Below, piece after piece: positions 16,246-60,987 of a stretch of DNA of 64,000 nucleotides. Position 1 is the first letter of the stretch, and each line of letters opens with the position of its first letter. The stretch covers positions 1 to 64,000 of the forward strand of contig NZ_JGVK01000022.1 in assembly GCF_000731795.2 (NCBI RefSeq), read 5' to 3'. A model generated the notes under the pieces. It had not been told where the DNA came from, did not search any database, and saw only the letters and a program-made list of their open reading frames with translations. The position numbers and the translations under genes were made by a program. The DNA is from Candidatus Photodesmus blepharonis (GTDB lineage Bacteria > Pseudomonadota > Gammaproteobacteria > Enterobacterales > Vibrionaceae).

Positions 16246-16417
16246 ATAATGCGCGTGTTGTGTAGTAATTGAATTAAAAAATTAATGATTAATATCATAT
16301 TTAAAATAGCAAAATATGCAGAGTAAGATCGAATTTAATAATTATTCATGAATAATGTGTTGATCTAAATTTAAATCAAACCACAATAAAAACTAGGTTT
16401 TCGGTTTGGATTCACAA

Positions 16418-17860
16418 ATGGAAAAGAAAGTACCCTTCGTATTAAATGGGATCATGTATCAACCTTCTAGCGCAAACGACAGAGAGCTAGTTGTCAATGG
16501 TCACTTCGTAAAGGTTCCTCTGTTTAGCAAGGAGGTTGTTGATGCGATTAAAAGCTCTAAAAAAATTGAGGAATTGGAGCTGCATTCCATTATAAATTTC
16601 TTGTATACTGTTGGTCAGCGTTGGAAAAGCGAAGAGTATTCGAGACGAAGAAGTTACATAAGAGATTTAGTGAAGTTCATGGGTTATTCAAAGCAAATGG
16701 CTAAGTTAGAGGCCAATTGGATATCCATGATACTATGTTCAAAAAGTGCTTTGTACGATATTGTTAGCAGTGATCTGGGATCGCGGCACATTGTCGATGA
16801 GTGGATACCCCAGGGGGAGTGCTATGTAAAAGCCTTTCCGAAAGGAAAGTCTGTTCACTTGCTAGCTGGAAACGTTCCCTTGTCTGGGATCACTTCCATT
16901 GTGCGCGCGATTATCACTAAGAATCAGTGTATTGTCAAGGTCTCTTCCTCCGATCCATTTACTCCAACTGCATTAGCCATGAGTTTCATTGATGTCGATC
17001 CAGATCACCCAGTTACTCGTTCTTTATCTATAGTTCATTGGTCGCACGCACACAGGGGAGATCTGAGTTTAGCTGTACAAATATTGGGTGAAGCTGATGT
17101 TGTTATAGCTTGGGGAGGAGAGGATGCCATTGAGTGGGCAGTTAAGCATACTCCACCCCATATCGATTTGATTAAATTTGGACCAAAGCAAAGTCTTAGT
17201 ATTATAGATGATCCTAGAGATCTAGAAGCTGCAGCGAGCGGTGTAGCACATGATGTTTGTTTTTATGATCAACAAGCGTGTTTTTCGACACAAAATGTTT
17301 ACTTTGTTGGTGAAAATTTTTGTGAATTTAAGAAGAAATTACAATCTAAACTAAGTTTATATGCCAATATTTTACCTAAAGCAGAGCAGAATTTTGATAG
17401 TAAAGTGGCATTCTCTTTGATGGAAAAAGAATGTTTGTTTGCTGGATATGTCGTAGATGTCGGAGAAAATCAAAGTTGGATGATGGTTGAGTCACCGGCT
17501 GGTTTGTTAAAAAATCAACCCTTAGGCCGCTGTGTTTATGTCCATCATGTTTCGGATGTTAGGGACGCTTATAGTTATGTCAGGAAATATATGACTCAGA
17601 CAGTGTCCATATACCCTTGGGAATCATCTTTCAAATATAGGGATGAATTAGCCAGTTGTGGTGCAGAAAGAATTGTTGAATCAGGAATGAATAATATATT
17701 TAGGGTGGGTGGTGCTCATGACACGATGCGCCCCCTGCAACGTTTAGTCCGGTTTGTCTCGCAGGAAAGGCCATTTAATTTTACAACGAAAGACGTTGCT
17801 GTTGAGATTGAACAAACGAGGTTCTTAGAAGAGGATAAATTCCTCGTTTTCGTACCGTAG
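16418..17860 (+). CDS. luxC: LuxC, acyl-CoA/acyl-protein reductase of the luminescence operon
   Basis: The reductase of the fatty acid reductase complex. It reduces the activated acyl group with NADPH to the long-chain aldehyde consumed by luciferase. The 480-residue product has long identities with V. fischeri LuxC, such as [37 protein letters not shown] and the ending [13 protein letters not shown]. The acyl-accepting cysteine is the one in QQACFS, about residue 288. I choose the ATG at 16418 ([11 protein letters not shown]) because it matches LuxC starts; a TTG at 16406 would add four residues. GGA lies seven bases upstream. First gene of luxCDABEG. Confidence 0.98.
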
Positions 17861-17876
17861 CATGGAAGAACATTAT

Positions 17877-18794
17877 ATGAGTAATGGGTTTGTCAATTCT
17901 ACAATTGATCATGTGATTAAGATGAACGACAAAGAAATCCGGGTTTGGGAAACTTTATCTAAAGAAGGATCACCCAAGAGGAACAAGATAATACTGATTT
18001 CATCTGGGTTTACTAGGCGTATGGATCATTTTTCAGGTTTAGCTGAGTATCTGTCAAGTAATGGTTTTCGAGTTGTGCGTTATGACTCTCTCGATCATGT
18101 TGGTTTAAGCACTGGCGATATTGATGAATTTACTATGACGGTTGGTAAGCAAAGTTTGTTGGCTGTGGTTAGGTGGCTGAATGATAAGAACATTTATGAC
18201 ATTGGTTTGATCGCCGCTAGTCTTGCTGCAAGGATTGCTTATGAGATCATTTCTGAGGTTCGTCTTTCTTTTTTAATTACAGCTGTTGGTGTAGTAAATT
18301 TGCGGGATACTTTGAAAAGAGCACTAGGTCTTGATTATTTAAACTTCCCTATTGGAGAATTGCCTGATGATTTAGAATTTGAAGGGCATCGTTTAGGAGC
18401 TAAGGCTTTTGTTCATGATTGTTATGCGCATCGTTGGCAGGATTTTTCCTCTACTGTGCAGAACGTAAGAGGCCTTTGTGCTCCGTTTATTACTTTTATT
18501 GCCAGCAATGATTCTTGGGTAAAGCAAGAAGAGGTTTTTGAAATGTTATCGAATATTTCCAGCGATTATAAGGTTTATTCTTTCTTTGGTGCTTCTCACA
18601 ATTTGGGAGGGAATTTTGTTGTGTTAAGGAGTTTTTATCAATCCATAACAAAAGCTGCAATTGCCTTAGAAAAAGGAAGTCTAAATCTCGATGCTGACAT
18701 ATATGAGCCTAAATTTGAACAGATTACTGTTACAACAGTTAATGAGCGTAGGATGAGAGCTCAAATAGAGAATCAATCTCTAGCCGTCTCCTAA
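17877..18794 (+). CDS. luxD: LuxD, acyl transferase (thioesterase) of the luminescence operon
   Basis: Releases myristic acid from acyl-ACP to feed the LuxC/LuxE reductase. The alpha/beta hydrolase shows its nucleophile in [14 protein letters not shown] (Ser about residue 115), the Asp in [12 protein letters not shown] and the His in [10 protein letters not shown]. These correspond to the known Ser-Asp-His triad. An in-frame ATG at 17862 exists, but GGAAG overlapping it lies eight bases before the ATG at 17877, and LuxD homologues start near the latter, so I use 17877. The gene begins 16 bases after the luxC stop codon. Length is about 305 residues, as usual. Confidence 0.98.
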
Positions 18795-18840
18795 TATAGT
18801 TTCTATAGGGACAGCGTTTATCAAAACAAGGAATGAAAAA

Positions 18841-19914
18841 ATGAAATTTGGAAACTTTTTACTTACTTATCAGCCTCCTCAACTCGATCAAACTGAGGTC
18901 ATTAAACGCATGGTCAATTTGGGTAGGGCTTCGGAATCATGTGGCTTTGACACGGTATGGTTGCTAGAGCATCACTTCACTGAGTTTGGTTTACTCGGTA
19001 ATCCTTATGTTGCAGCAGCTAATTTGCTTGGTGCAACCAAAACGTTGAATGTTGGTACTGCTGCTGTTGTGTTACCGACTGCCCATCCAGTGCGTCAACT
19101 TGAAGATGTGAATCTTCTTGATCAAATGTCGAAAGGTCGTTTTAAGTTCGGGATTTGTCGAGGTTTATATAACAAGGATTTCCGCGTTTTCGGAACTGAC
19201 ATGGATAATAGTCGCGAACTTATGAACTGTTGGTACGATATCATGGTTGAGGGCATGGAAAAAGGTTCTGTTTCTTCAGAGAGCGAACATATTAAATTTC
19301 CTGAAGTTACTGTTGGTCCGAATTCCTATATTGAACGGGGTGCTCCAGTGTATGTAGTGGCAGAGTCTGCTTCAACTACTGAATGGGCTGCAGAAAGAGG
19401 GTTGCCTATGATTCTAAGCTGGATTATCAATCTCAATGAAAAGAAAGCTCAACTTGATCTTTACAATGAAGTTGCGCTTGAACATGGTCATGATATTTCG
19501 AAGATTGATCATTGTTTATCTTATATTACATCAGTCCAGCATGATAGCAATCAAGCCAAAGATACGTGTCGTGATTTTTTAGGGCATTGGTATGATTCTT
19601 ATCTTAACGCTACCACAATATTTGACGATTCAGACCAAACTAAGGGTTACGATTTTAATAAAGGTCAGTGGCGAGATTTTGTCTTAAAAGGGCATAAGGA
19701 TACCAACCGTCGTATTGATTACAGCTATGACATTAATCCTGTTGGAACACCAGAGGAGTGCATTAATATTATTCAGTCTGATATAGATGAAACTGGTATT
19801 AGTAATATTTGTTGTGGGTTCGAAGCTAATGGTGGCGAAGAGGATATCATTGCTTCAATGCAGCTTTTCCAGTCTGATGTTATGCCGCATCTAAAAGAAA
19901 GAAGCAAGCATTAA
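18841..19914 (+). CDS. luxA: Bacterial luciferase alpha chain
   Basis: Catalytic subunit of the flavin monooxygenase that oxidises FMNH2 and a long-chain aldehyde with O2 to give blue-green light. The 357-residue TIM-barrel protein starts [13 protein letters not shown]. It has the active-site His44 in LLEHHF and the reactive Cys106 in [16 protein letters not shown]. The long loop of about residues 260-290 that is specific to alpha chains is present ([17 protein letters not shown]), so the chain looks functional. AAGGA precedes the ATG. luxB follows after 25 bases; the two chains form the heterodimer. Confidence 0.99.
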
Positions 19915-19939
19915 CCATCTAGGATAAAAGGGGTTACGT

Positions 19940-20914
19940 ATGAAATTCGGATTATTTTTTCAAAACTTTCTTACTGAGAATCAGTCGTCGGAGGTAGTTT
20001 TAGATCGTATGATAGAAATTGCCACTTATGTCGACGAATTGAATTTTGAGCAAATTTCTGTCTATGAAAACCATTTTTCGCCTAATGGAATTGTAGGGGC
20101 TCCATTGACTGTGTCTGGTTTCCTATTGGGTTTAACCAAAAAGATAAAAATTGGTTCGCTGAATCATATTTTAACTACTCATCATCCTGTCCGATCAGCA
20201 GAGGAGGCTTGTTTGCTTGATCAGATGAGTGAAGGACGTTTTATCTTTGGTTTTTCCGATTGTGAAAAAGAGAGTGAAATGGCGTTTTTCAATCGTCAAT
20301 TAGATTCTCAAGAGCAGATCTTTAATGCTTGTTATGATATTATCAGTGAATCCTTTAGCACTGGTTATTGTCATCCTGATAATGACTTTTTTAATTTTCC
20401 TAAAATATCTGTCAACCCGCACGCTTTTACCCCAGGTGGACCCTTACAGTATGTAACAGCTAGTAGCTCAAAGGTTGTTGAATGGGCAGCTAAGAAAGCT
20501 CTTCCATTGATATTTAAATGGGATGATAGCAATCAAACTAGATCTCAGTATGTTGAGCAATATAAGGCTGCAGCGCTGAGATTTGGAGTAGATGTCACTA
20601 ATGTGGGACATCAACTGACGTTGATGGTTAATGAAAATTCTGATAGTGCAGTTGCTAAGCAGGAATCTAGAGAGTACTTTTCTGCTTTCGTTAAGGAGAT
20701 GTATCCTTCTGTTGAACATGAAGAAAAATTGGAAGAGCTTATTGCTGAAAATGCGATTGGTAATTGCGATGAATGTCTTGAGGCAAGTAAATTGGCGTTA
20801 GAGAAATCAGGAGCCTCACGGTTACTGATGTCGTTTGAGTCTATTAAGAATCTTGCACATCAAAAGTCGGTTATCAATTTAATTAATGAAAATATTGGCA
20901 AGTATCATATGTGA
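19940..20914 (+). CDS. luxB: Bacterial luciferase beta chain
   Basis: Non-catalytic partner that stabilises the luciferase alpha chain. The 324-residue protein begins MKFGLFFQNFLTE and aligns with LuxA throughout, but lacks the active-site Cys (FGFSDCEKESE in its place) and the long alpha-chain loop, as expected for a beta chain. It has VYENHFSPNGIVGAP and LDQMSEGRFIFGF. AAAAGGGG precedes the ATG. No luxF gene, which some Photobacterium species have after luxB, follows; instead a hairpin lies before luxE. Confidence 0.99.
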   Translation: MKFGLFFQNFLTENQSSEVVLDRMIEIATYVDELNFEQISVYENHFSPNGIVGAPLTVSGFLLGLTKKIKIGSLNHILTTHHPVRSAEEACLLDQMSEGRFIFGFSDCEKESEMAFFNRQLDSQEQIFNACYDIISESFSTGYCHPDNDFFNFPKISVNPHAFTPGGPLQYVTASSSKVVEWAAKKALPLIFKWDDSNQTRSQYVEQYKAAALRFGVDVTNVGHQLTLMVNENSDSAVAKQESREYFSAFVKEMYPSVEHEEKLEELIAENAIGNCDECLEASKLALEKSGASRLLMSFESIKNLAHQKSVINLINENIGKYHM

Positions 20915-20941
20915 TTTTGCCAAGAAACTCTGTACTCCAAA

Positions 20942-20972
20942 GGGCGGTGGTAGCTTAGTTTTATCACTGCCC
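20942..20972 (+). other. 11-bp RNA hairpin between luxB and luxE
   Basis: GGGCGGTGGTA (20942-20952) pairs with TATCACTGCCC (20962-20972) over 11 base pairs, two of them G-U in RNA, around a nine-base loop. It is far more GC-rich than its surroundings. No T-run follows directly, so it is not a simple terminator. It could be a processing or stability element, or a partial attenuator that sets LuxE below LuxAB. It lies where luxF sits in some Photobacterium operons. Confidence 0.65.
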
Positions 20973-21006
20973 GCGCGTTGTTATTTTTCACTTTAGGATG
21001 AAACTT

Positions 21007-22128
21007 ATGAGTGTTGTTCCTCATATGAAGCTAGAAGATATTGATGTGAGCTCAGAAATTGATAATTTGATTTTTATGAGTTCTCCGTTTGAGTTTTCTT
21101 ATCAAGCTCAAAAAAAAATCCAAAGAGAGCTAGTATTGAACGCATTTCGTTACCATTATGCGAATAATTCTGATTACCGTAAGTATTGCGGGGTGTCAGG
21201 TGTTGATGCAAGTCTTTCTGATGTTGATGATATTCCTGTTTTTCCTAATTCAGTATTTAAGTATTCTAAGCTAGTCACAGCGAATAAGGATGATATAGAA
21301 AATTGGTTCACAAGTAGTGGAACTCAAGGTATTAAGAGTTTTGTTCCGCGTGATAGAGTAAGTATTGAACGTTTGTTGGGTTCTGTTATTTACGGAATGA
21401 AATATGTGGGTAATTGGTTCGATCATCAAATGGAGCTGGTCAATCTAGGTCCTGATCGATCTGATGTTAATGATATCTGGTTTAAGTATGTCATGAGTTT
21501 GGTTGAGCTGCTTTATCCAACAACTTTTACTGTGCATAACGAGAAAATAGATTTTAAACTCACATTGCAAGCTTTAGATAGAATTAAGAGTTCTAATAAA
21601 GCGATCTGCTTGGTTGGTCCTCCTTATTTTGTATTTCTACTTTGTGAACATATGAAGAAAGAAGGTCTTAAATTTAATGGCGGAGAGTCGTTCTATATTA
21701 TCACTGGGGGCGGATGGAAAAATCACGAAAATAAATCTCTTAATCGTGTTCGCTTCAATCACTTGTTGATGGATGTCTTTCAGTTATCTGATAAAAGTCA
21801 AATTCGTGATACCTTTAATCAAGTTGAATTAAACACTTGTTTTTTTGAAGATGAACAGCAACGTAAAAGGGTGCCGCCTTGGGTGTATGCTCGAGCGTTA
21901 GATCCCGTAACTCTTAAATCTCTTCCGAATGGTGAGTTAGGGCTTCTGAGTTTCATGGATGCTTCAGCCACCAGCTATCCCGCTTTTTTGCTTACTGATG
22001 ATGTTGGTATTATTTTAGAACACGCTGATGGGGTGGTTGGAACAAGTGTCGAGGTATTGCGTAGAGTGAAAACGAGAACGCAAAAAGGGTGTGCATTAAG
22101 CATGTCGAAGGCTTTCGCTGATAGATGA
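21007..22128 (+). CDS. luxE: LuxE, acyl-protein synthetase of the luminescence operon
   Basis: Activates fatty acid with ATP to acyl-AMP, holds the acyl group on a cysteine and passes it to LuxC. The product has long LuxE segments: SSEIDNLIFM, ENWFTSSGTQGIKS, RVSIERLLGSV, LVNLGPDRSD, ICLVGPPYFVFLL, IITGGGWK and QVELNTCFFED. The acyl-carrying Cys lies in QKGCALSMSK near the C-terminus. I place the start at 21007 because AGGA lies eight bases upstream; an ATG at 20998 directly abuts that AGG. The product is 373 residues. luxG begins 16 bases downstream. Confidence 0.97.
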   Translation: MSVVPHMKLEDIDVSSEIDNLIFMSSPFEFSYQAQKKIQRELVLNAFRYHYANNSDYRKYCGVSGVDASLSDVDDIPVFPNSVFKYSKLVTANKDDIENWFTSSGTQGIKSFVPRDRVSIERLLGSVIYGMKYVGNWFDHQMELVNLGPDRSDVNDIWFKYVMSLVELLYPTTFTVHNEKIDFKLTLQALDRIKSSNKAICLVGPPYFVFLLCEHMKKEGLKFNGGESFYIITGGGWKNHENKSLNRVRFNHLLMDVFQLSDKSQIRDTFNQVELNTCFFEDEQQRKRVPPWVYARALDPVTLKSLPNGELGLLSFMDASATSYPAFLLTDDVGIILEHADGVVGTSVEVLRRVKTRTQKGCALSMSKAFADR

Positions 22129-22144
22129 TTGCGAGGAATGAAGT

Positions 22145-22846
22145 ATGATTGTTCGTTGCGCTGTAACCGACGTTATTCAGATGTCGAGTAGTGTTTATAG
22201 AGTTCTTTTAAAGCCGGAAGTCAATATTGTCTTTAAGGCTGGACAATACTTGAAAGTGCATTTTAACTCTAAGAGTTATGCTTTCTCGATTGCTAGTTCT
22301 CCATTAGATCAGGATTTGATTGAATTACATATCAGAAAGAACGAAGGGATTGGCGATAGCTGTATCGTTGGTTGTTTTCAACAAGCTTTAAATGAGAACA
22401 TTCTAGTAGATGTTCCGCATGGTGATGCTTGGTTACGAGAGGATAGCGATAGGCCGATACTGCTTATGGCTGGTGGTACTGGTGTATCTTATGTTTCTGG
22501 AATTTTGAAGAAATGTATTAGTTCAAAAATGGTTCAACCTATTTACTTATATTGGGGAGTGAAAAATATTGAACTGCTTTATGTGCATAAGGAACTTATC
22601 GATTTAGTAGCAACACATGATAATGTTTATTACGTCTCTGCAGCGGAATATATGGATGATGTCCATCATTTGGTCAAAAAAGGTACCGTGCTTGATGTTA
22701 TTCTTAATGATTTCAATAATCTCTCTCAGTTTGATATTTACATGTGTGGTCCAGTGCCAATGATTAAGGCTGCTAAGGTATTATTAGGAAATTATAGAAA
22801 TGCGAATTTAGAACGAATGTTTTCTGACGCGTTAGCCTATGTTTAA
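22145..22846 (+). CDS. luxG: LuxG flavin reductase of the luminescence operon
   Basis: An NAD(P)H-dependent flavin reductase of the Fre family that supplies FMNH2 to luciferase. The 233-residue product has the flavin-binding segment YAFSIASSP, the nucleotide-binding motif LLMAGGTGVSYV, PHGDAWLRED and the C-terminal YMCGPVPMIKAA. PHGDAWLR and the ending ERMFSDALAYV match V. fischeri LuxG better than the housekeeping Fre. Sequence GAGGA lies before the ATG. It closes the lux operon; a hairpin and T-run follow. Confidence 0.97.
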   Translation: MIVRCAVTDVIQMSSSVYRVLLKPEVNIVFKAGQYLKVHFNSKSYAFSIASSPLDQDLIELHIRKNEGIGDSCIVGCFQQALNENILVDVPHGDAWLREDSDRPILLMAGGTGVSYVSGILKKCISSKMVQPIYLYWGVKNIELLYVHKELIDLVATHDNVYYVSAAEYMDDVHHLVKKGTVLDVILNDFNNLSQFDIYMCGPVPMIKAAKVLLGNYRNANLERMFSDALAYV

Positions 22847-28405: not shown

Positions 28406-29047
28406 ATGAAAACTTATCAGCGTGAGTTTATCGAATTTGTACTGGAAAAGAGAATTTTAAAATTTGGTAAATTTACCTTAAAATCTGGTCGTAAAAGTCC
28501 TTATTTTTTTAATTCTGGATTGCTAAATACAGGTTGTGATCTTGAGCGTTTAGGATATTTCTATGCTGCAGCTTTGTTTGATTCAAGTGTTGAATTTGAC
28601 GTTCTGTTCGGGCCAGCTTATAAGGGGATTCCAATTGTGACTACTACAGCAATTGCTTTATCTAATTATCATAACATGAATACACCTTATTGTTTTAATA
28701 GAAAAGAGGTAAAAAATCATGGTGAAGGCGGCAGCCTGGTAGGCTCTCCATTAAAAGGCCGTGTTGTATTGGTTGATGATGTGATTACTTCTGGTAAAGC
28801 GGTACGTGAATCAGCCAAAATCATTCAAGAGAATGGTGCGTATTTGACCAGTATTTTTGTTGCTATTGATCGTCAAGAAAGAGGCCAGGGTATATTATCT
28901 GCTGTTCAAGAAGTAGAGGAAGATTTTAGTTGTTCAGTTTTCAAAATTGTTAGTCTAACAGAATTGGCAACTTACCTTGAAAGCAAAAAAATATACAGCC
29001 ATCATTTAACTGCATTAAAAACATATCTTAATTCATACGGTATTTAA
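28406..29047 (+). CDS. pyrE: Orotate phosphoribosyltransferase
   Basis: Makes orotidine 5'-phosphate from orotate and PRPP. The 213-residue product has the PRPP motif [17 protein letters not shown] near residue 120, the N-terminal substrate segment [14 protein letters not shown] and FGPAYKGIP. The flexible-loop basic residues [12 protein letters not shown] are kept. Length is typical. GTGAGGAAA precedes the ATG. Together with pyrBI in the same window this suggests complete pyrimidine synthesis. Confidence 0.97.
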
Positions 29048-29155: not shown

Positions 29156-32100
29156 CTAGAGCTGTACTTTTTCAATAAATAGTTTTAAGTGATGCTCATC
29201 AATATTGAATAATAACGCTTGATCATCGAGTTCCGCTTTTCTAAAGGAGAGAGCTAATACTTCACTTCGAATATAATCTTCTTGCTCCTCGATCCATTTA
29301 TTCAATGGGTTAGAAGCCATATATTTTACATGAATGCGATCTTCAATCTTCAAATTTTTATTTTTCCGAGTTTTTTGAATGAGACTTACCACTTCTCTTA
29401 CTATTCCTTCTTTAATTAATTCATCGTTAAGCTCACAATTAAGCACAATTGAGATATACTGATTTGATAATGCATCATTACCTTTTTTAGCTTTGCGGAC
29501 CACGCATATTTCTTTATCAGTAAATTCTTTATCATCAATTTTAATAGCACCTTTTTTTAGAAGTTCAAATAGTTTAGATTCATTCAAAGATTCGATTTTT
29601 GACTTATATTTTTTAAATTCTTTCCCCAGTTTTTTTCCTAGCACTGGGAAATTAGGTTTAGCACAATATTCAATATAATCAGATTCGTTGCGACTATATT
29701 GAATCGTTTTTACATTAAGCTCGGATTTTAGATACTCTTCCAGCATAGAAATGCGGTAAAGTACTTCCTGTTCTTGATGTAACACAGTGAGTTTGTAGAG
29801 TGGAATTTTAAGCTTAATCTTGTGTTGTTCACGTTTCTGTCTTCCAAGCAGAATTATATTTATTAATTCATGAACGGAATCTTCTAGTTGGAAATTTGTT
29901 TTATTTATATCTTTTTCAGGAAAACGACATAAATGCACAGATTTAGGTTGAGTTTCTTGATTCGACATTTTCTTCATTTCCAGATAAATGTATTCGGATA
30001 AGAACGGGGTAAATGGTGCCATAAGAGTAGAAAATTCTTTAATGCAGGTGAATAGAGTTTGATATGCTAATACTTTATCTTGATTAATATGCGCTTGCCA
30101 AAATCTTGTTCGATTTAGGCGAATGTACCAATTGCTTAACTGTTCTAAAAATTCGAACAAGGAAGGTACAACATTATATAATTGGTATGCTGCCATTTTT
30201 TTATTAACTTTATATTTCAGACTTTGCAGTCTAGAAATTATCCATTGATCTAGGATATTTTCCGGTTGAAAATCATTTCTTGGCATTTTCCAGTTATCGA
30301 TTTGAGTATAGCTTTGTAGAAATTTAAATGAATTTAACCAAGGTAGCAAAACACGACGAACCATTTCTTGAGATCCCGAGTTACTGAATCTTTGCTCTTC
30401 TCCTTTTACTAATCCTGAGTTTATCAGATATAGCCTTAATGCGTCAGCACCATGTGTTTCCATCAATTGATTTGGTGATGTATAGTTACGCAGTCGCTTC
30501 GACATCTTTTTCCCATTTTCAGCCACTACAATACCATTGACAATGACATTTTGAAACGCTGGTTTTTTAAACAAGCAGTTGCTTATTATTTGGAGTGTAT
30601 AAAACCAGCCACGAGTTTGATCAAGACCTTCAGCAATAAATTGTGCAGGGAACCTTTTTTCAAGTGATCGTTTATTTTTAAATGGGTAGTGAATTTGAGC
30701 GTAAGGCATTGATCCGGATTCGAACCAACAGTCTAGAACTTCCTCAATACGTTTGTATGTACCTGGTTCATTTTTCAGAGTAAACATTAAGTGATCAACA
30801 TGATCTCTGTGTAAATCTTCAACTTTATGGCCAGTATATCTTTTAAGTTCTTCACGAGAACCAATACAAACGTAGTTTCCAGTTTTGTCATTACGCCAGA
30901 TTGGAATTGGTGTTCCCCAATAACGATTACGGGAAATTGCCCAGTCAATAGAATTTATCAACCAGTTTTTCATGCGACCATCTTTCAGATATTTAGGTAT
31001 CCAATTGATTTGTTTATTATTTTCAACTAGTTCATCCCGCATTTGTTTTACTTTAACATACCAGGATGGAATGGTTCGATAAATGATCGGCGAATCTGAA
31101 CGCGGACAAAAGGGATAACTGTGTACGATAGTATCGTATCTATACAATAGACCACGTTTTTTCAGTGCTTGAATGATTGCTTTATTGGCGTCTTTAACAA
31201 ACATACCTTTGAAATCAGTAACTTCATCTGTAAATTTCGCTTTCATGTCGATTGGACAGACTGTTACATCAATATTATGAGATTTCAAAACACGGTAGTC
31301 ATCTTCTCCAAAAGCAGGGGCAGCATGAACTATTCCAGTACCGGTATCAGTGCTTACGTAATCGTCTGAGATGATGACGAATGCTCCCCTTTCCTTGAGA
31401 TGCCTGAAGTATGGGAAAAGAGGCCGATAAGCTGCTCCTTCCAAATCGTGTCCTTTGCATGTTTTTAAAGTTCTGATATTTTTATTTTTTGACATGGCCT
31501 TGAGACGTGCATCGGCAATCCATAACTTTTGTTGGGTATCCTTATCAAAAATTAATGTATAGTGAGCGTTTTTATTGATACACAATGCTAGGTTAGATGG
31601 CAAAGTCCATGGAGTAGTAGTCCAGGTAGCAATATACTCATCAGAGTTTTCTAGCTCAAATAAGACCGTAATAGCAGGATCCTGAATGTCCTTGTAATTA
31701 GATGTAGCCTCAAAGTTAGATAATACTGTCATTAGTTCAGTCGAATAAGGCACTACTTTTTCACCTTGATAGACTAATCCTTTATTCCACAGTTGCTTGA
31801 ATACCCACCAGACTGATTCCATATACCATGGTTCCATAGTACGATAATCGTTCTTGAAATCAACCCAGCGACCAATACGAGTGATTGTTTTTTCCCATTC
31901 TTTTGTATAGAGCTGTACTATTGAACGGCACTTGTTGTTATATGCGGTGATTCCGAGTTTTTTAACTATTTCTTGGGCTGACATTCCGAGTTCTTTATCG
32001 ATTTCATGCTCGATAGGTAGACCATGACAATCCCATCCGAAACGACGTTGTACGTAATAGTTTTTCATTGTAAAATAACGAGGTATGATGTCTTTAATCG

Positions 32101-32296
32101 TTGAAGCGAGTAAGTGTCCGTGATGAGGCAAGCCTGTAGCAAACGGAGGGCCATCATAGAAAACATAAGCGTCGCTATTTTTTGTTTGTTCTAAAGATTC
32201 TTGAAAGATTTTGTTTTCTTTCCAAAAATTAAGAATGCGATGTTCTGTTTCTACAAATGAGAAATCCGATTTGGCTTCTTGTTTAGTATTTATCAC
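29156..32296 (-). CDS. ileS: Isoleucyl-tRNA synthetase, eukaryote-like (type 2) form
   Basis: Charges tRNA-Ile. At 1046 residues it is about 100 longer than the usual gammaproteobacterial enzyme (about 940). Its motifs are those of the eukaryote-like class. The HIGH element reads DGPPFATGLPHHGHLLAS, then RRFGWDCHGLPIEHEIDKE, MPYAQIHYPF and KMSKRLRNYTSPNQL, very close to yeast and type-2 bacterial enzymes. Type 1 has PYANGxIHIGHA and a C-terminal zinc ribbon, which is not seen. Type-2 enzymes are often insensitive to mupirocin. The start is GTG at 32296. It lies between pyrE and kbl, not in the usual ribF-ileS-lspA operon, which suggests transfer. Whether a type-1 copy exists elsewhere is unknown. 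Confidence 0.95.
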   Translation of the reverse strand: MINTKQEAKSDFSFVETEHRILNFWKENKIFQESLEQTKNSDAYVFYDGPPFATGLPHHGHLLASTIKDIIPRYFTMKNYYVQRRFGWDCHGLPIEHEIDKELGMSAQEIVKKLGITAYNNKCRSIVQLYTKEWEKTITRIGRWVDFKNDYRTMEPWYMESVWWVFKQLWNKGLVYQGEKVVPYSTELMTVLSNFEATSNYKDIQDPAITVLFELENSDEYIATWTTTPWTLPSNLALCINKNAHYTLIFDKDTQQKLWIADARLKAMSKNKNIRTLKTCKGHDLEGAAYRPLFPYFRHLKERGAFVIISDDYVSTDTGTGIVHAAPAFGEDDYRVLKSHNIDVTVCPIDMKAKFTDEVTDFKGMFVKDANKAIIQALKKRGLLYRYDTIVHSYPFCPRSDSPIIYRTIPSWYVKVKQMRDELVENNKQINWIPKYLKDGRMKNWLINSIDWAISRNRYWGTPIPIWRNDKTGNYVCIGSREELKRYTGHKVEDLHRDHVDHLMFTLKNEPGTYKRIEEVLDCWFESGSMPYAQIHYPFKNKRSLEKRFPAQFIAEGLDQTRGWFYTLQIISNCLFKKPAFQNVIVNGIVVAENGKKMSKRLRNYTSPNQLMETHGADALRLYLINSGLVKGEEQRFSNSGSQEMVRRVLLPWLNSFKFLQSYTQIDNWKMPRNDFQPENILDQWIISRLQSLKYKVNKKMAAYQLYNVVPSLFEFLEQLSNWYIRLNRTRFWQAHINQDKVLAYQTLFTCIKEFSTLMAPFTPFLSEYIYLEMKKMSNQETQPKSVHLCRFPEKDINKTNFQLEDSVHELINIILLGRQKREQHKIKLKIPLYKLTVLHQEQEVLYRISMLEEYLKSELNVKTIQYSRNESDYIEYCAKPNFPVLGKKLGKEFKKYKSKIESLNESKLFELLKKGAIKIDDKEFTDKEICVVRKAKKGNDALSNQYISIVLNCELNDELIKEGIVREVVSLIQKTRKNKNLKIEDRIHVKYMASNPLNKWIEEQEDYIRSEVLALSFRKAELDDQALLFNIDEHHLKLFIEKVQL

Positions 32297-32761
32297 AGAT
32301 ATTGTCTCAAAATAAATTGTTAACTGAATTATTGGCGATGTTTCTTAACTAGTTTTCTAGAACGTAGTAGCTTCTTCAACCGTGATTCTAAACTTAAGTA
32401 CAAGACTTATAGTGGAGCAATACTTGAAGAGGAAAGCTAATTGTCTAATCATGGCATACTTACTTCTCGTTAATCATAAGAGGAAGTGAAAATTACAAGT
32501 GGATTCAAAATCCGATATTAGGGAGAAAGATATCAGATTTCATATTTTGATTACAGAGGGATTTGAAGTTATGTAGGTGCTTCTCACCTATATCTTTAGT
32601 CATTTGTGTATTTGAACTAGAAAATTCTTAATGGTAAATAAAATTGCTTCATTTCTTTTTAAAATATACTCATACTTCGCTTTTCCGTGGTTTTTCAGAA
32701 ATTAAGTCAAATATTAGATGTAGCGCATGCATACAACTAAATGGTCAAGAGGAATTCGGTG
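32297..32761. other. Divergent gap between ileS and kbl
   Basis: 465 AT-rich bases with no supported gene. It holds the leftward ileS and rightward kbl-tdh promoters. No T-box-like structure for ileS was recognised. AAGAGGA at 32747-32753 is the ribosome site of kbl. Confidence 0.5.
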
Positions 32762-33967
32762 GTGAGACCTGCATTTTATCAACAGATCCGTAATAAAATC
32801 AAACAAATTAAAGCAGAAGGGTTATATAAAGATGAACGTATTATAACTTCAGCTCAAAAATCAAAAATTTCTATTTCTTCTTTTTCAGAGGACGTTTTAA
32901 ATCTTTGCGCAAATAATTATTTAGGTTTAGCTAATCACCCTAAGTTAGTTGAGTCAGCAAAACTTGGTATGGATAAATACGGTTTTGGTATGGCTTCAGT
33001 ACGCTTTATTTGCGGTACTCAAGACTTACACAAGGAACTAGAAAAGAAGCTATCTGAGTTTCTTGGTAAGGAAGATACAATCTTATACACTTCCTGTTTC
33101 GATGCAAATACTGGTTTATTTGAAGCACTACTTACTGAAGAAGATGCGGTTATTTCCGATGCTTTAAATCATGCTTCAATTATTGATGGAGTGCGCTTAT
33201 GTAAAGCAATGCGTTTTCGTTATGCAAATAATAATATGCAGGAATTAGAACAGAAGCTAATAATAGCAAGAAAAAAAAAGGTGCTTAATATTCTTATTGT
33301 GACTGATGGTGTATTTTCTATGGACGGAGTAGTGGCTAATTTGCCAGCTATCTGTAATTTAGCAGAAAAATACGATGCGCTGGTTATGGTTGATGATTCT
33401 CATGCCGTTGGTTTTATGGGTAAAAAAGGTTCGGGTACACCGGAATATCATAATGTTGTTGATCGTATCGATATAGTTACGGGAACTTTAGGTAAAGCAA
33501 TGGGGGGAGCTTCAGGCGGGTACGTTTCGGGAAAAAAAGAAGTAATTGATTGGTTGCGTCAGCATTCGCGTCCATACTTGTTTTCTAATTCTCTTGCACC
33601 TGCGATTTTATCTGCTTCTATATGTGCTCTTGATTTATTGAAGGAATCTAATAGGTTGCGTGATCGTCTATGGAAGAACACTTCGCATTTTCGTACTCGT
33701 ATGAAAAAAGTTGGATTCACTTTAGGTGGTCTCGATCACGCTATTGTTCCAATCATGCTTGGTGATGCGAAATTGGCTACTGAATTTGCAAATCGTGCAT
33801 TAAATCAGGGCATCTATGTTGTGAGTTTTTCTTTTCCAGTTGTGCCAAAGGGTGAAGCTCGTGTTCGTGTTCAAATGTCTGCAGCTCATAATTTACAGCA
33901 ATTAGATCGTGCTGTTGATGCTTTTATCCAGGTAGGGAAAAACATGGGGATTGTAAATGAAAATTAA
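32762..33967 (+). CDS. kbl: 2-amino-3-ketobutyrate coenzyme A ligase
   Basis: PLP enzyme that splits 2-amino-3-ketobutyrate (from Tdh) with CoA into glycine and acetyl-CoA. Motifs include [42 protein letters not shown] and the PLP lysine in [15 protein letters not shown] place the start at GTG 32762 ([13 protein letters not shown]): AAGAGGA lies eight bases upstream and homologues start with the same F-Y-Q-Q segment. An ATG at 32741 would add seven residues and overlap the ribosome site. The product is about 401 residues. The end overlaps tdh by 11 bases. Confidence 0.96.
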
Positions 33968-34988
33968 AGCTTTATCAAAATTAAAGCCTCAGGAAGGAAT
34001 TTGGATGACTGAAGTAGATCAGTTAGAGCCTGCTTATAACCATGTTTTAATTAAAATTAGAAAAACCGCTATTTGTGGCACTGATGTACATATTTATAAT
34101 TGGGATAAATGGTCACAAAATACTATTCCCATACCTATGGTTGTAGGCCATGAATATATGGGTGAAGTGGTAGGTATGGGAAAAGGAGTACACGGTTTTG
34201 AGATTGGTGATCGTGTATCTGGCGAGGGTCATATCACCTGTGGAAGCTGTCGTAATTGCCGTGGTGGTCGCACTCACTTATGTCGCAATACTACTAGTGT
34301 TGGTGTTAATCGTGCTGGCGCATTTTCTGAATATTTTGTCATTCCTAGTTTTAATGTCTTCAGAATCCCTAAAGGTATTTCGGATGATTTAGCTGCTATC
34401 TTTGACCCTTTTGGGAACGCAGTACATACAGCCTTATCTTTTAATCTTGTAGGTGAAGATGTACTTATTACTGGTGCGGGACCGATTGGTATTATGGCTG
34501 CAGTTGTTGCGAAGTACGTAGGCGCACGTCATGTTGTTATTACTGATGTAAACGGATATCGTTTGGATTTGGCGCGAAAAATGGGTATAGCTCATGTTGT
34601 AAATATTTTAGAGGAAAAGCTAGAGAACATAATGATGCAATTAGAGATAATGGAGGGTTTTGACGTAGGTTTTGAAATGTCTGGTAATCCATCTGCATTG
34701 AATTCAATGCTAAAAATTATAAATCATGGTGGGTGTCTTGCTTTACTAGGTATTCCACCATCAGATATGTGTATTGATTGGAATCAAGTGATTTTAAAAG
34801 GTTTAACGATTAAGGGAGTTTATGGACGCGAGATGTTTGAAACTTGGTATAAGATGGTAAGTTTGATTCAATCTGGTTTAGATTTGACACCAATTATTAC
34901 TCATCGTTTCAAAATCGATGATTTTCAAAAAGGCTTTGATGTCATGCGTTTTGGTACCTCAGGTAAAGTAGTTTTCGATTGGGATTAG
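33957..34988 (+). CDS. tdh: L-threonine 3-dehydrogenase
   Basis: Oxidises threonine to 2-amino-3-ketobutyrate, the substrate of Kbl. The 343-residue zinc alcohol dehydrogenase family protein has the catalytic Zn segment [15 protein letters not shown] with [10 protein letters not shown], four cysteines for structural Zn in [15 protein letters not shown], and the NAD-binding [14 protein letters not shown]. It overlaps kbl by 11 bases, giving the usual kbl-tdh operon. Threonine can thus supply glycine and acetyl-CoA; with methionine and threonine synthesis apparently reduced (see metL), the threonine may come from the host. Confidence 0.97.
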
Positions 34989-35069: not shown

Positions 35070-36515
35070 TTATGATAACTTGCATTCGATGGAATCATAT
35101 AAGCACTGTGCAGGGGGGGTAGATAACGTTTTTGTAAACGGAAGAGGGGGGACGGACGCTTGTTTTTTTATTTGGAATAGCTGGTTATGAATAGCTATGA
35201 CCAGAGGAGAAACAGAAGTATTACGTAATATTGCAACTAAACTTAATGCGGATTGGGATTCTGAGATAAACTCGATTGGGTGTGCCTTTAATTGTTGATA
35301 AAAATCATGGCAATGATTCAGGTTTTTGACTATACCTGAACCAACAGCTGCTATTAAAGAATAGCCTTCTTGGATCTTGACTGTTGTAGTATCAATGGCT
35401 AAATTTTGTAGGTAGCTCAGTGCAGCATTGACTTTTTCAGTTGTGTAAGCTAAGCGAAACGTATATAGCTCAATCTTAGTTTCATAGGTGAGCGGTTCTA
35501 ATTGAGCACTTTTGAGATTTTGTAGCAAACTTGATATAGTATCTTGAAGGTTGTGCTTTTGATGATTGAAAGTAAGTTGAATTAGCAATACCTCATCAAG
35601 TGAGGTGATAACTTTAGCTCCGCTGTGTGAAGAAAGAGTGCGTTCAATACGCGTTGAACCTAGTTTCGGTTGGTAACTAGAACGCAAATGTAAGTGCATT
35701 TTGCTTTGAGCGACGGGTTGTAGTGTACGACTGTGAAGTACTGGAGTTGCTAAACGTGCTAATTCGTCTGCTTCATCTAATCCAAGACAGGGTAATAGAT
35801 GCGCATCGTTGACGATATAGGGATCTGCGCTGTATACACCTGCTACATCGCTCCAAATGGTTACTTGGTAAACTCCTGTCAGGATACCTATAGCTGTTGC
35901 TGAGTAATCTGAACCGTTACGACCAAGGAGGACAGTATTTCTTTGTTTGTCTCGCGCCATAAAACCAGTGATTACTAATCGCCGATGAGGGTGTTTAACT
36001 AGCATTTTTTTAACTAACGGATAAGAGCTATTAAGATCAATTTCAGGCTGTATTCCCAAATTTGCTCTCAAAAAATCACGAGAGTCCTGATTGATAGCCG
36101 GCAAATTTTCTTGACAAAGGACAGCAGCTAGAAGCCGTGCTGACCAAATTTCACCATAACCAAGTACTCTAGCTTCTATTTCTGCATTTAAAGGTGCGAC
36201 TAGTTCTCTAAGTGTGTTGAACTCACTTCCAAGTTGAACTAGAACTTGGAATCGACGTTCTTCCTTAAGGAGTTTTTTGACTAACTTAGTGTGAAATTTA
36301 TATAACTCTTGTAGAATTTCGTCTGCTACACACTTGTCTTTACGTAGATAGCTAACAAACTTAATCAAAAAGTCGGTTGTTTTTCCAGATGCGGATACTA
36401 CGATTATATCTCCGTTATTTGAGTGTTCTTTAATAATCTGAACGACGTGTTGGTAGCATTCCGGAGTAGCTAAGCTGTTGCCACCAAATTTATGTAGTTG
36501 ACGAGAAATAGTCAT
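35070..36515 (-). CDS. metL: MetL-type aspartokinase truncated after the kinase and ACT domains (homoserine dehydrogenase half lost)
   Basis: Aligns from its start with the aspartokinase II half of MetL: QLHKFGGNSLA, GYGEIWSARLLAAVL, TVLLGRNGSDYSATAIG, VTIWSDVAGVYSADP and LARLATPVLHSRTLQPVA. It then runs through the ACT-like region as far as about residue 450. MetL is normally about 810 residues with a C-terminal homoserine dehydrogenase. Here homology ends near FQIKK, and a tail of about 30 unrelated residues follows, including two proline pairs from C-runs of six and seven bases. The remainder could act as a monofunctional aspartokinase. The signature KFGG[ST]S reads KFGGNS. The ribosome site is weak. 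It lies beside rpmE and priA as in vibrios, but metB and metJ are absent. Confidence 0.9.
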   Translation of the reverse strand: MTISRQLHKFGGNSLATPECYQHVVQIIKEHSNNGDIIVVSASGKTTDFLIKFVSYLRKDKCVADEILQELYKFHTKLVKKLLKEERRFQVLVQLGSEFNTLRELVAPLNAEIEARVLGYGEIWSARLLAAVLCQENLPAINQDSRDFLRANLGIQPEIDLNSSYPLVKKMLVKHPHRRLVITGFMARDKQRNTVLLGRNGSDYSATAIGILTGVYQVTIWSDVAGVYSADPYIVNDAHLLPCLGLDEADELARLATPVLHSRTLQPVAQSKMHLHLRSSYQPKLGSTRIERTLSSHSGAKVITSLDEVLLIQLTFNHQKHNLQDTISSLLQNLKSAQLEPLTYETKIELYTFRLAYTTEKVNAALSYLQNLAIDTTTVKIQEGYSLIAAVGSGIVKNLNHCHDFYQQLKAHPIEFISESQSALSLVAILRNTSVSPLVIAIHNQLFQIKKQASVPPLPFTKTLSTPPAQCLYDSIECKLS

Positions 36516-59769: not shown

Positions 59770-60987
59770 TTAACTAAATTGATAGCTTTCTGGTACAACT
59801 ATTATACCGTTTTGAGAGATATAAAAGCGTTTTGAATCTTCGAGTTTATTGAATCCTATTTTTACATAAGGAGGTATAGTTACATGCTTATCAATGATAC
59901 AATTCACAAGTTGGCAACCTTTTTCTAAGGTAACATCATCGAATAAAACACTATCAATGACAGTCGCATTATCATTAATTCGTACATTCGACGAAATTAC
60001 CGAATTCTGTACTAAACCACCAGAGTTGATGACACCATTAGCGATCATTGAGTTAATAAATATTCCTTCGTTTCCAGTTACAGATGATACTGTTTTGGCG
60101 GGAGGAAACTGAGTTTCATAGGTATGGATAGGCCAATTTTGTTGATACAAGTTCATAGGTGGAATTGGTTTTAGAAGATCCATGTTCGCATTATAGAAGG
60201 AATCAATAGTGCCTATATCACGCCAATAACAATTTTTAGCAACTCTACCTAGACTATTACAAAATTTATAGGCATGAACATTTTGTTTTTTGATTAAGAG
60301 TGGTATAATATCCCTCCCGAAGTCATGGCTTGACTGGCTGTTTTCAGAATCTTCAATTAACGCACTATATAGCGTGTCCATATTAAAGACATATATTCCC
60401 ATTGATACTAAACTTCTATTAACGTCGTTTCGGATGGATGGAGGATTTACAGGTTTTTCAATAAAAGAGATTATTTGATTTTGATTATTTGTTGTCAAAA
60501 CACCAAATGAAACTGCTTCGTTTTTTGCCATGTCCATACAAGCTACCGTTACCTCGGCACCTTCGGACTTATGTTGCTTAAGCATGGGCATGTAGTCCAT
60601 ACGATAGATATGATCTCCGGAAAGTATGATAACATACTCAGCATGACTACGAGAGAGTAACCACAAGTTATGATAAATAGCGTCAGCTGTGCCTTCATAC
60701 CATTTATTACCTCTGCACATTTGTGGTGGAATTACTGATATGTATTCTCCTAGTTCTGAATTAAATACCGACCATCCATCACGCAAGTGTTTTTGTAATG
60801 AGTAGGATTTATATTGCGTGAGGACTAATATGCGCCGCAAGCCAGAATGTAAACAGTTGGTGAGTGTAAAATCGATGATACGATATTTCCCTCCAAAAGG
60901 AACAGCAGGTTTAGCACGATGGTTGGTAAGTGGAGTGAGTCGGGAACCGACTCCACCAGCTAGTATGATGGTCAATGTTTCTTGCAT
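59770..60987 (-). CDS. glgC: Glucose-1-phosphate adenylyltransferase
   Basis: Makes ADP-glucose for glycogen synthesis. The 405-residue product has the nucleotide-binding start [55 protein letters not shown] and FIEKP, followed by a left-handed beta-helix at the C-terminus. Length is normal and no motif is lost. Vibrios carry glgA beside glgC; neither glgA nor glgB is in this window. AAAGG lies ten bases before the ATG. Whether glycogen is made depends on genes elsewhere. Confidence 0.95.

Follow-up and report, generated by a model that had tools for sequence, protein, structure and literature searches.

Isoleucyl-tRNA synthetases (IleRSs) fall into two types. As a rule only one of them is present, but some Bacillaceae, a small group, are described as carrying both (PMC10485003). 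Type-2 enzymes (IleRS2) have Phe or Thr where the synthetic site of type 1 (IleRS1) has Tyr (PMC4861432), their C-terminal subdomain does without the type-1 zinc-binding motif, and their sensitivity to mupirocin is lower by a factor of about a thousand or more (PMC10485003). The inhibition constant (Ki) for mupirocin is 0.20 and 1.08 µM in two canonical type-2 enzymes against 0.29 nM in one of type 1, and in the Priestia pair the Km for isoleucine is 49 µM for type 2 versus 2.1 µM for type 1 (PMC10485003, Table 1). A review credits IleRS2 with low activity and retained editing (PMC9437257). The type-2 enzyme of Priestia megaterium has the canonical HXGH motif, and the form GXHH in its place has been tied to mupirocin hyper-resistance (PMC10485003). 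TmlM, encoded on plasmid pTML1 of Pseudoalteromonas sp. SANK 73390, is the thiomarinol self-resistance enzyme and confers high resistance in Escherichia coli (PMC3069032). Here, a new member of this known class, encoded by the gene ileS2, is described from a 64,000-nucleotide stretch of the genome of Candidatus Photodesmus blepharonis (Vibrionaceae; P. blepharus below), namely positions 1 to 64,000 of contig NZ_JGVK01000022.1 (the window). By homology it is the only IleRS gene of that genome, and a second symbiont genome, G113, has a type-1 gene in its stead. Aminoacyl-tRNA synthetase genes are classic examples of housekeeping genes, yet two apparently sister symbionts, each with a genome of about 1 Mb, appear to translate with IleRSs of anciently diverged types.

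The gene and the signatures of its protein are placed as follows.

29156..32296, minus strand: ileS2, type-2 isoleucyl-tRNA synthetase of 1046 residues, the sole IleRS found in the genome (profile and genome searches)
32114..32125, minus strand: HXGH catalytic signature, here HHGH, residues 58-61 (motif; nucleotide position by arithmetic)
30494..30511, minus strand: KMSKS-loop signature, here KKMSKR, residues 596-601 (motif; nucleotide position by arithmetic)
29165..29737, minus strand: C-terminal DUF5915, residues 854-1044, not in the type-1 enzyme of G113 (Pfam; nucleotide position by arithmetic)

The open frame has exactly the coordinates and strand given in the original prediction, starts with GTG and contains no internal stops. 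Its product reaches 919 bits with the NCBIfam ileS profile, above the cut-off of 621.4, and combines the HXGH and KMSKS motifs with an anticodon-binding domain, as an IleRS should; Pfam recognizes the class-I catalytic core, the anticodon-binding domain and DUF5915. Several features place it in type 2, as the original prediction had claimed. The segments GLPHHGHLLAS and RRFGWDCHGLPIE, quoted in support of that claim, are both present, and the synthetic site reads GPPFATG, with the type-2 Phe, versus GPPYANG in two type-1 enzymes. CxxC pairs, C-terminal in both type-1 enzymes tested, are lacking, and this, together with DUF5915, fits the C-terminal region of IleRS2. With the type-1 enzyme of G113 it is only 27% identical, and with ten further type-1 enzymes from Vibrionaceae 28-29%, whereas Vibrionaceae type-2 enzymes reach 57-63% (70% over one broken frame). 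The predicted surplus of about 100 residues is also borne out, type-1 enzymes having 942-948. Across 27 type-2 relatives, which include four of the TmlM clade and leave out L103 and L104, 392 alignment columns are invariant, and the window protein retains 367 of them. Judged from its sequence, the gene is an intact IleRS2.

Among solved structures, the closest in sequence are chains labelled cytoplasmic IleRS, the top one with 1043 bits, and type-1 structures reach at most 326 bits. Two further structures of the same type, alignable over most of the window protein, fall below the cytoplasmic chains: the Priestia megaterium enzyme (8C8U/8C8V) with 757 bits and 1ILE, which we take to be the Thermus thermophilus IleRS, with 678. 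The label 'eukaryote-like' in the original prediction therefore stands as a description of resemblance; as a statement about a eukaryotic donor it does not, the near relatives found being gammaproteobacterial. Chromosomal type-2 enzymes of Vibrionaceae, Marinomonas and Motilimonas, such as those of Vibrio penaeicida (L006), Veronia (L010) and Marinomonas (L013), form one clade with the window protein, at 55-63% identity to it (70% over one broken frame); L006, L010 and L013 share HHGH and KMSKR with it, as do L089 and L094, and L006 likewise lacks the CxxC pair. The staphylococcal enzymes MupA and MupB are type-2 relatives too, with 727 and 739 bits, which lie far below the 1900-bit cut-off, so that the protein does not qualify as MupA or MupB; plasmid-borne MupA is 37% identical to it. 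With IleRS1 of G113 it shares the reaction and the catalytic and anticodon-binding Pfam domains.

The genome to which the window belongs comprises 1,112,309 bases in 33 contigs, with an estimated completeness of 99.99% and contamination of 0.09%; the size given for P. blepharus Ppalp1, which lives in symbiosis with the flashlight fish Photoblepharon palpebratus, is 1,112,309 bp, at 35.6% G+C (PMC6020299, Table 2). A search of this genome with the window protein returned ileS2 itself and otherwise weak partial matches at two places, and with the ileS profile the runner-up scored 252 bits versus 919 for ileS2. These weaker matches, from their frame length and score, are probably other class-I synthetases. 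The customary site of ileS1 was inspected as well. In 20 of 20 Vibrionaceae stretches ileS1 lies, by coordinates, between ribF and lspA, though these stretches were chosen by their ileS1 and its presence there follows from the selection. In the window's genome murJ, ribF, lspA and ispH are found on a contig (C29) other than that of ileS2, where 92 bp separate the end of ribF (8547 of L141) from the start of lspA (8640), in the middle of a contig of 32.8 kb. The predicted location of ileS2 outside the ribF-lspA context is thus correct, and the proposed search for a second ileS beside these genes finds none. G113 is colinear in this region, as seen by eye from the order, strand, length and opening residues of the genes, and has a 946-residue type-1 ileS between ribF and lspA; four genes of the region are 64-71% identical between the two genomes (BLAST). 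No type-2 ileS was found in G113.

An assembly in 33 contigs invites the suspicion that ileS2 is a contaminant or that ileS1 was dropped from the assembly. We give this explanation hardly any credence: the genes flanking ileS2 on its contig are colinear with G113, the place where ileS1 is missing is internal to its contig with matching genes on both sides, and the completeness and contamination values speak against it.

Comparison with G113 extends to the surroundings of ileS2, where the following features of the window are needed.

16406..22846, plus strand: lux genes, read as luxC, D, A, B, E and G, marking the genome of a luminous symbiont (NCBIfam, Pfam and G113 matches)
28406..29047, plus strand: pyrE, which borders on the left the segment in which the symbionts differ
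32741..34988, plus strand: kbl (glycine C-acetyltransferase) and tdh (threonine dehydrogenase), divergent from ileS2
35070..36515, minus strand: aspartokinase portion of a MetL-like bifunctional enzyme, which borders the differing segment on the right
59770-60987, minus strand: glgC-like frame

G113 is 1.0 Mb in size, two of its stretches have 30.5-30.6% G+C and it has the same lux block as the window; with 1,015,921 bp and 30.8% G+C reported for P. katoptron Akat8 (PMC6020299, Table 2), it is very likely this symbiont. Fifteen window genes, from luxA to pfkA, match one stretch of G113 in the same order, at 54-90% identity. Among frames of at least 100 residues the sole difference is the interval between pyrE and the aspartokinase gene, which holds ileS2, kbl and tdh in the window and 283 bp in G113. 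The neighbours of pyrE differ in G139, a 5.7-Mb relative and the single large genome compared, so that the shared order from luxA to pfkA supports a sister relationship of the two symbionts. A four-protein tree also joins them (G000 and G113). From these observations we infer that G113 is the sister of P. blepharus.

The fate of kbl bears on how this segment came to differ. Of 11 genomes searched, ten have Kbl, two of the matches containing an internal TGA, and only G113 has none (E<=1e-100); a single deletion could therefore have taken ileS2, kbl and tdh together. Within the pyrE-metL gap of G113 a 35-residue Kbl-like stretch occurs on the expected strand with a score of 57, a value that 1000 shuffles do not attain (at most 53), which hints at a kbl remnant.

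What has to be explained is read from the two genomes themselves, namely the presence, type and singleness of ileS2, the lack of ileS1 and the reverse situation in G113. The explanation we favour, and consider probable, is that the ancestor held both enzymes, that each symbiont lost a different one and that the type-2 spare became the sole housekeeper. The ancestor of the flashlight-fish symbionts would have had its native ileS1 in the ribF-lspA interval, together with an ileS2 that had been acquired horizontally and served as a spare insensitive to antibiotics. As the genome shrank, a single IleRS would have been sufficient, and which of the two was lost may have been a matter of neutral sorting. 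In the lineage of P. blepharus ileS1 would have been cleanly deleted from the ribF-lspA operon, making ileS2 essential, and in that of G113 the ileS2-kbl-tdh segment would have been deleted and ileS1 kept. The window protein would then act as an ordinary IleRS, activating isoleucine with ATP at HHGH and KMSKR, transferring it to tRNA-Ile and editing valine. The evidence also leans towards the more general statement that this is a case of reciprocal loss in sister obligate symbionts, in which drift during reduction made an acquired resistance enzyme irreplaceable.

Several points weigh against this account. No pieces of ileS1 were found in the 92-bp ribF-lspA gap and none of ileS2 in the 283-bp gap of G113, although both were sought. 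The Kbl-like stretch is weak: one of 42 other window frames (at least 150 residues) equals its score of 57, and the Kbl proteins of ten other genomes score just 32-46 against the same gap; even a true kbl remnant would leave unproven that ileS2 once lay beside it. The sister relationship draws mainly on gene order with one outside genome, and the tree has mixed support (92/26) and long branches. The first-branch position of the window protein in the IleRS2 phylogeny described below, on a long branch, dates nothing. Finally, of the 392 invariant columns the protein departs from 25, or 6.4%; the highest value among the 27 relatives is 5.8% (L072), and the remainder range from 0 to 2.7%. With 367 columns retained and this excess of deviations, it looks functional yet under relaxed constraint, a condition reported for Photodesmus genomes generally (PMC6020299).

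The 122 proteins collected from other loci reduce to 117 distinct ones, or 118 with the window protein, from which trees of 68 and 37 rows were made; the broken frame L103 was omitted from both. In the 37-row tree, computed with a site-heterogeneous model, the window protein branches off first within a 20-row clade (support 100/99) that comprises type-2 enzymes of Vibrionaceae, Marinomonas and Motilimonas, and the 68-row tree, with a type-1 outgroup, agrees (25-row clade, support 99). The protein thus groups far from type 1 and apart from the ordinary Vibrionaceae IleRS; a position among the latter would have refuted the original prediction. Its exact place is unsure, its branch being long and its amino acid composition unusual. 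Two narrower groupings were rejected by the approximately unbiased (AU) test. One is a lineage of ileS2 confined to Vibrionaceae (p-AU 7e-6), the clade also holding Marinomonas and Motilimonas; the other places the window protein in the TmlM clade (p-AU 0.0037). As both groups were chosen with the first trees already in view, and given the long branch of the window protein, the p values err a little on the generous side. TmlM, the only one of 198 plasmid records with more than 60% identity to the window protein (61.4%, nearly full-length), has the same motifs; however, it lies in a tml-type cluster, whereas the neighbours of ileS2 are pyrE, kbl and tdh. Direct descent from the self-resistance gene of a thiomarinol producer was rejected on gene neighbourhood and the AU test.

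Within the Vibrionaceae, type-2 ileS was found in 20 of 329 genomes, that of the window and 19 others, in a survey that scored two candidates per genome. All 19 also have type 1, which makes the two-enzyme state common among carriers, and extends to 19 of 329 Vibrionaceae the coexistence described for Bacillaceae. A single match with a type-1 E-value was obtained in 305 genomes, their type being read from the E-value column, and type 1 is split in three more (G109, G296 and G030); G183, 79% complete, showed neither type above the thresholds (1e-60; 1e-150). Type 1 was accordingly seen in 327 of 329 genomes, and type 2 without type 1 in the window's genome only. In two of the 19 other carriers, G020 (L104/L156) and G078 (L103/L157), both with type 1, the type-2 frame is broken, possibly through sequencing error; breakage is what a dispensable copy would predict. 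The sites of ileS2 vary among the 19, some near relatives sharing a neighbourhood and others differing. When stretches of 13-19 kb around these copies were compared with the window (E<=1e-30), the only gene in common was a generic ABC ATPase, present in 4 of 19. The original prediction would also have failed had vibrios generally carried this form at this locus, and neither its frequency nor its neighbourhoods bear that out. Outside the family the sole type-2 state is not unique to P. blepharus, a possibility that was considered and rejected: type 2 is present in 12 of 274 sampled Gammaproteobacteria (E<=1e-150; the window's genome included), and the other 11 show one ileS match apiece (E<=1e-120), which establishes sole type 2 elsewhere in the class.

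The patchy distribution and horizontal mobility of ileS2 in Vibrionaceae, along with the rejection of a clade of Vibrionaceae alone, raise another history, in which the ancestor of both symbionts had ileS1 only. After the split P. blepharus would have taken up ileS2 from another marine bacterium, inserted it next to pyrE and kbl and subsequently lost ileS1, and G113 would have lost kbl and tdh separately. The lack of an ileS2 remnant in G113 suits this course, as does the life of Photodesmus, an extracellular symbiont that seems to colonize new hosts from the environment (PMC6020299). The composition of ileS2, however, equals that of its neighbourhood: its G+C content is 0.351 versus 0.360 for the window, and at third codon positions it is 0.290, inside the range of 20 other window genes (0.215-0.359). 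A recent arrival, for which the original prediction had proposed this comparison, therefore leaves no sign and was rejected on composition. By eye, no integrase or transposase was seen among the window frames beside ileS2, the symbiont of A. katoptron is listed with zero transposable elements (PMC6020299, Table 4, a table without P. blepharus), and one event more is needed than with a joint deletion of ileS2, kbl and tdh. We regard this late acquisition as possible but rather unlikely.

The reduction in antibiotic sensitivity that comes with type 2 suggests a further explanation. By enzyme class, the window protein is probably less sensitive to mupirocin and thiomarinol-like antibiotics, and its canonical motif, HHGH rather than the G/AXHH of hyper-resistant enzymes, predicts a micromolar Ki for mupirocin. 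Inhibitors of the pseudomonic-acid or thiomarinol type, whether encountered within the light organ or away from the fish, could have favoured the type-2 enzyme, with loss of type 1 favoured or costless. The resistance conferred by the relative TmlM and the insensitivity of the class accord with this, as do the tml-type genes that adjoin ileS2 in four other strains. However, no result supports exposure to an inhibitor, the presumed sister symbiont, of similar life, kept type 1, the motif is not the hyper-resistant GXHH, and the 19 other carriers keep both enzymes, so that resistance needs no loss of type 1. Selection of this kind strikes us as improbable. That weaker isoleucine binding is tolerable in a slow symbiont is speculation.

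The symbiont pair amounts to a small natural experiment, suggesting that a whole proteome can be made with an accessory resistance enzyme. The swap lets the costs in rate, isoleucine affinity and accuracy be asked about, with the type-1 symbiont as a built-in control. No report of a sole type-2 enzyme in one symbiont and its absence in the other was found in the literature searched, which omitted the Photodesmus genome papers of 2014 and 2016.

Other features of the window and of G113 can be noted briefly. The lux calls come from NCBIfam for luxC, luxA and luxE and from Pfam for the luxD-, luxB- and luxG-like frames; that of luxG draws on a general domain and gene position, and A, B, E and G were matched in G113. 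The MetL-like aspartokinase/homoserine dehydrogenase of the window is reduced to its aspartokinase (481 residues, profile positions 10-460 of 810), and the G113 copy (L198 7773-9140) is short too, at 455 residues. In G113 priA occupies two adjacent frames (676 and 80 residues; L198 4895-7145) and is one frame of 735 residues in the window, and a flavoprotein gene near rpiA forms two frames (133 and 191 residues; L142 14996-16167) and one of 405 residues in G000; the splits are either frameshifts or sequencing errors. No RNA families or tRNAs were found in the window. The glgC-like frame presumably encodes ADP-glucose pyrophosphorylase. Glycogen storage is reported in one of the two flashlight-fish symbionts (PMC6020299).

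The wider set of type-2 loci yielded further observations. The order ileS2, fatty acid-CoA ligase, short-chain dehydrogenase/reductase, acyl carrier protein and polyketide synthase, at 72-92% identity to pTML1, recurs in Vibrio sp. S9_S30 (L009/L148), Alkalimonas collagenimarina (L012) and Pseudoalteromonas luteoviolacea MMG009 and NCIMB 1944 (L008, L082), the last a reported thiomarinol producer (PMC5069768). By this similarity, genes of the thiomarinol type occur in a Vibrio and an Alkalimonas. In ten gammaproteobacterial type-2 enzymes Asn replaces the last His of HXGH, giving HHGN (L042, L051, L059, L062, L069, L071, L073, L078 and L081) or HFGN (L162), and the main text of PMC10485003 makes no mention of this HXGN form. 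Nine more distant gammaproteobacterial IleRS2 (L164-L172; 35-37% identity) have the GXHH form, each being the sole ileS match (E<=1e-120) in its own genome.

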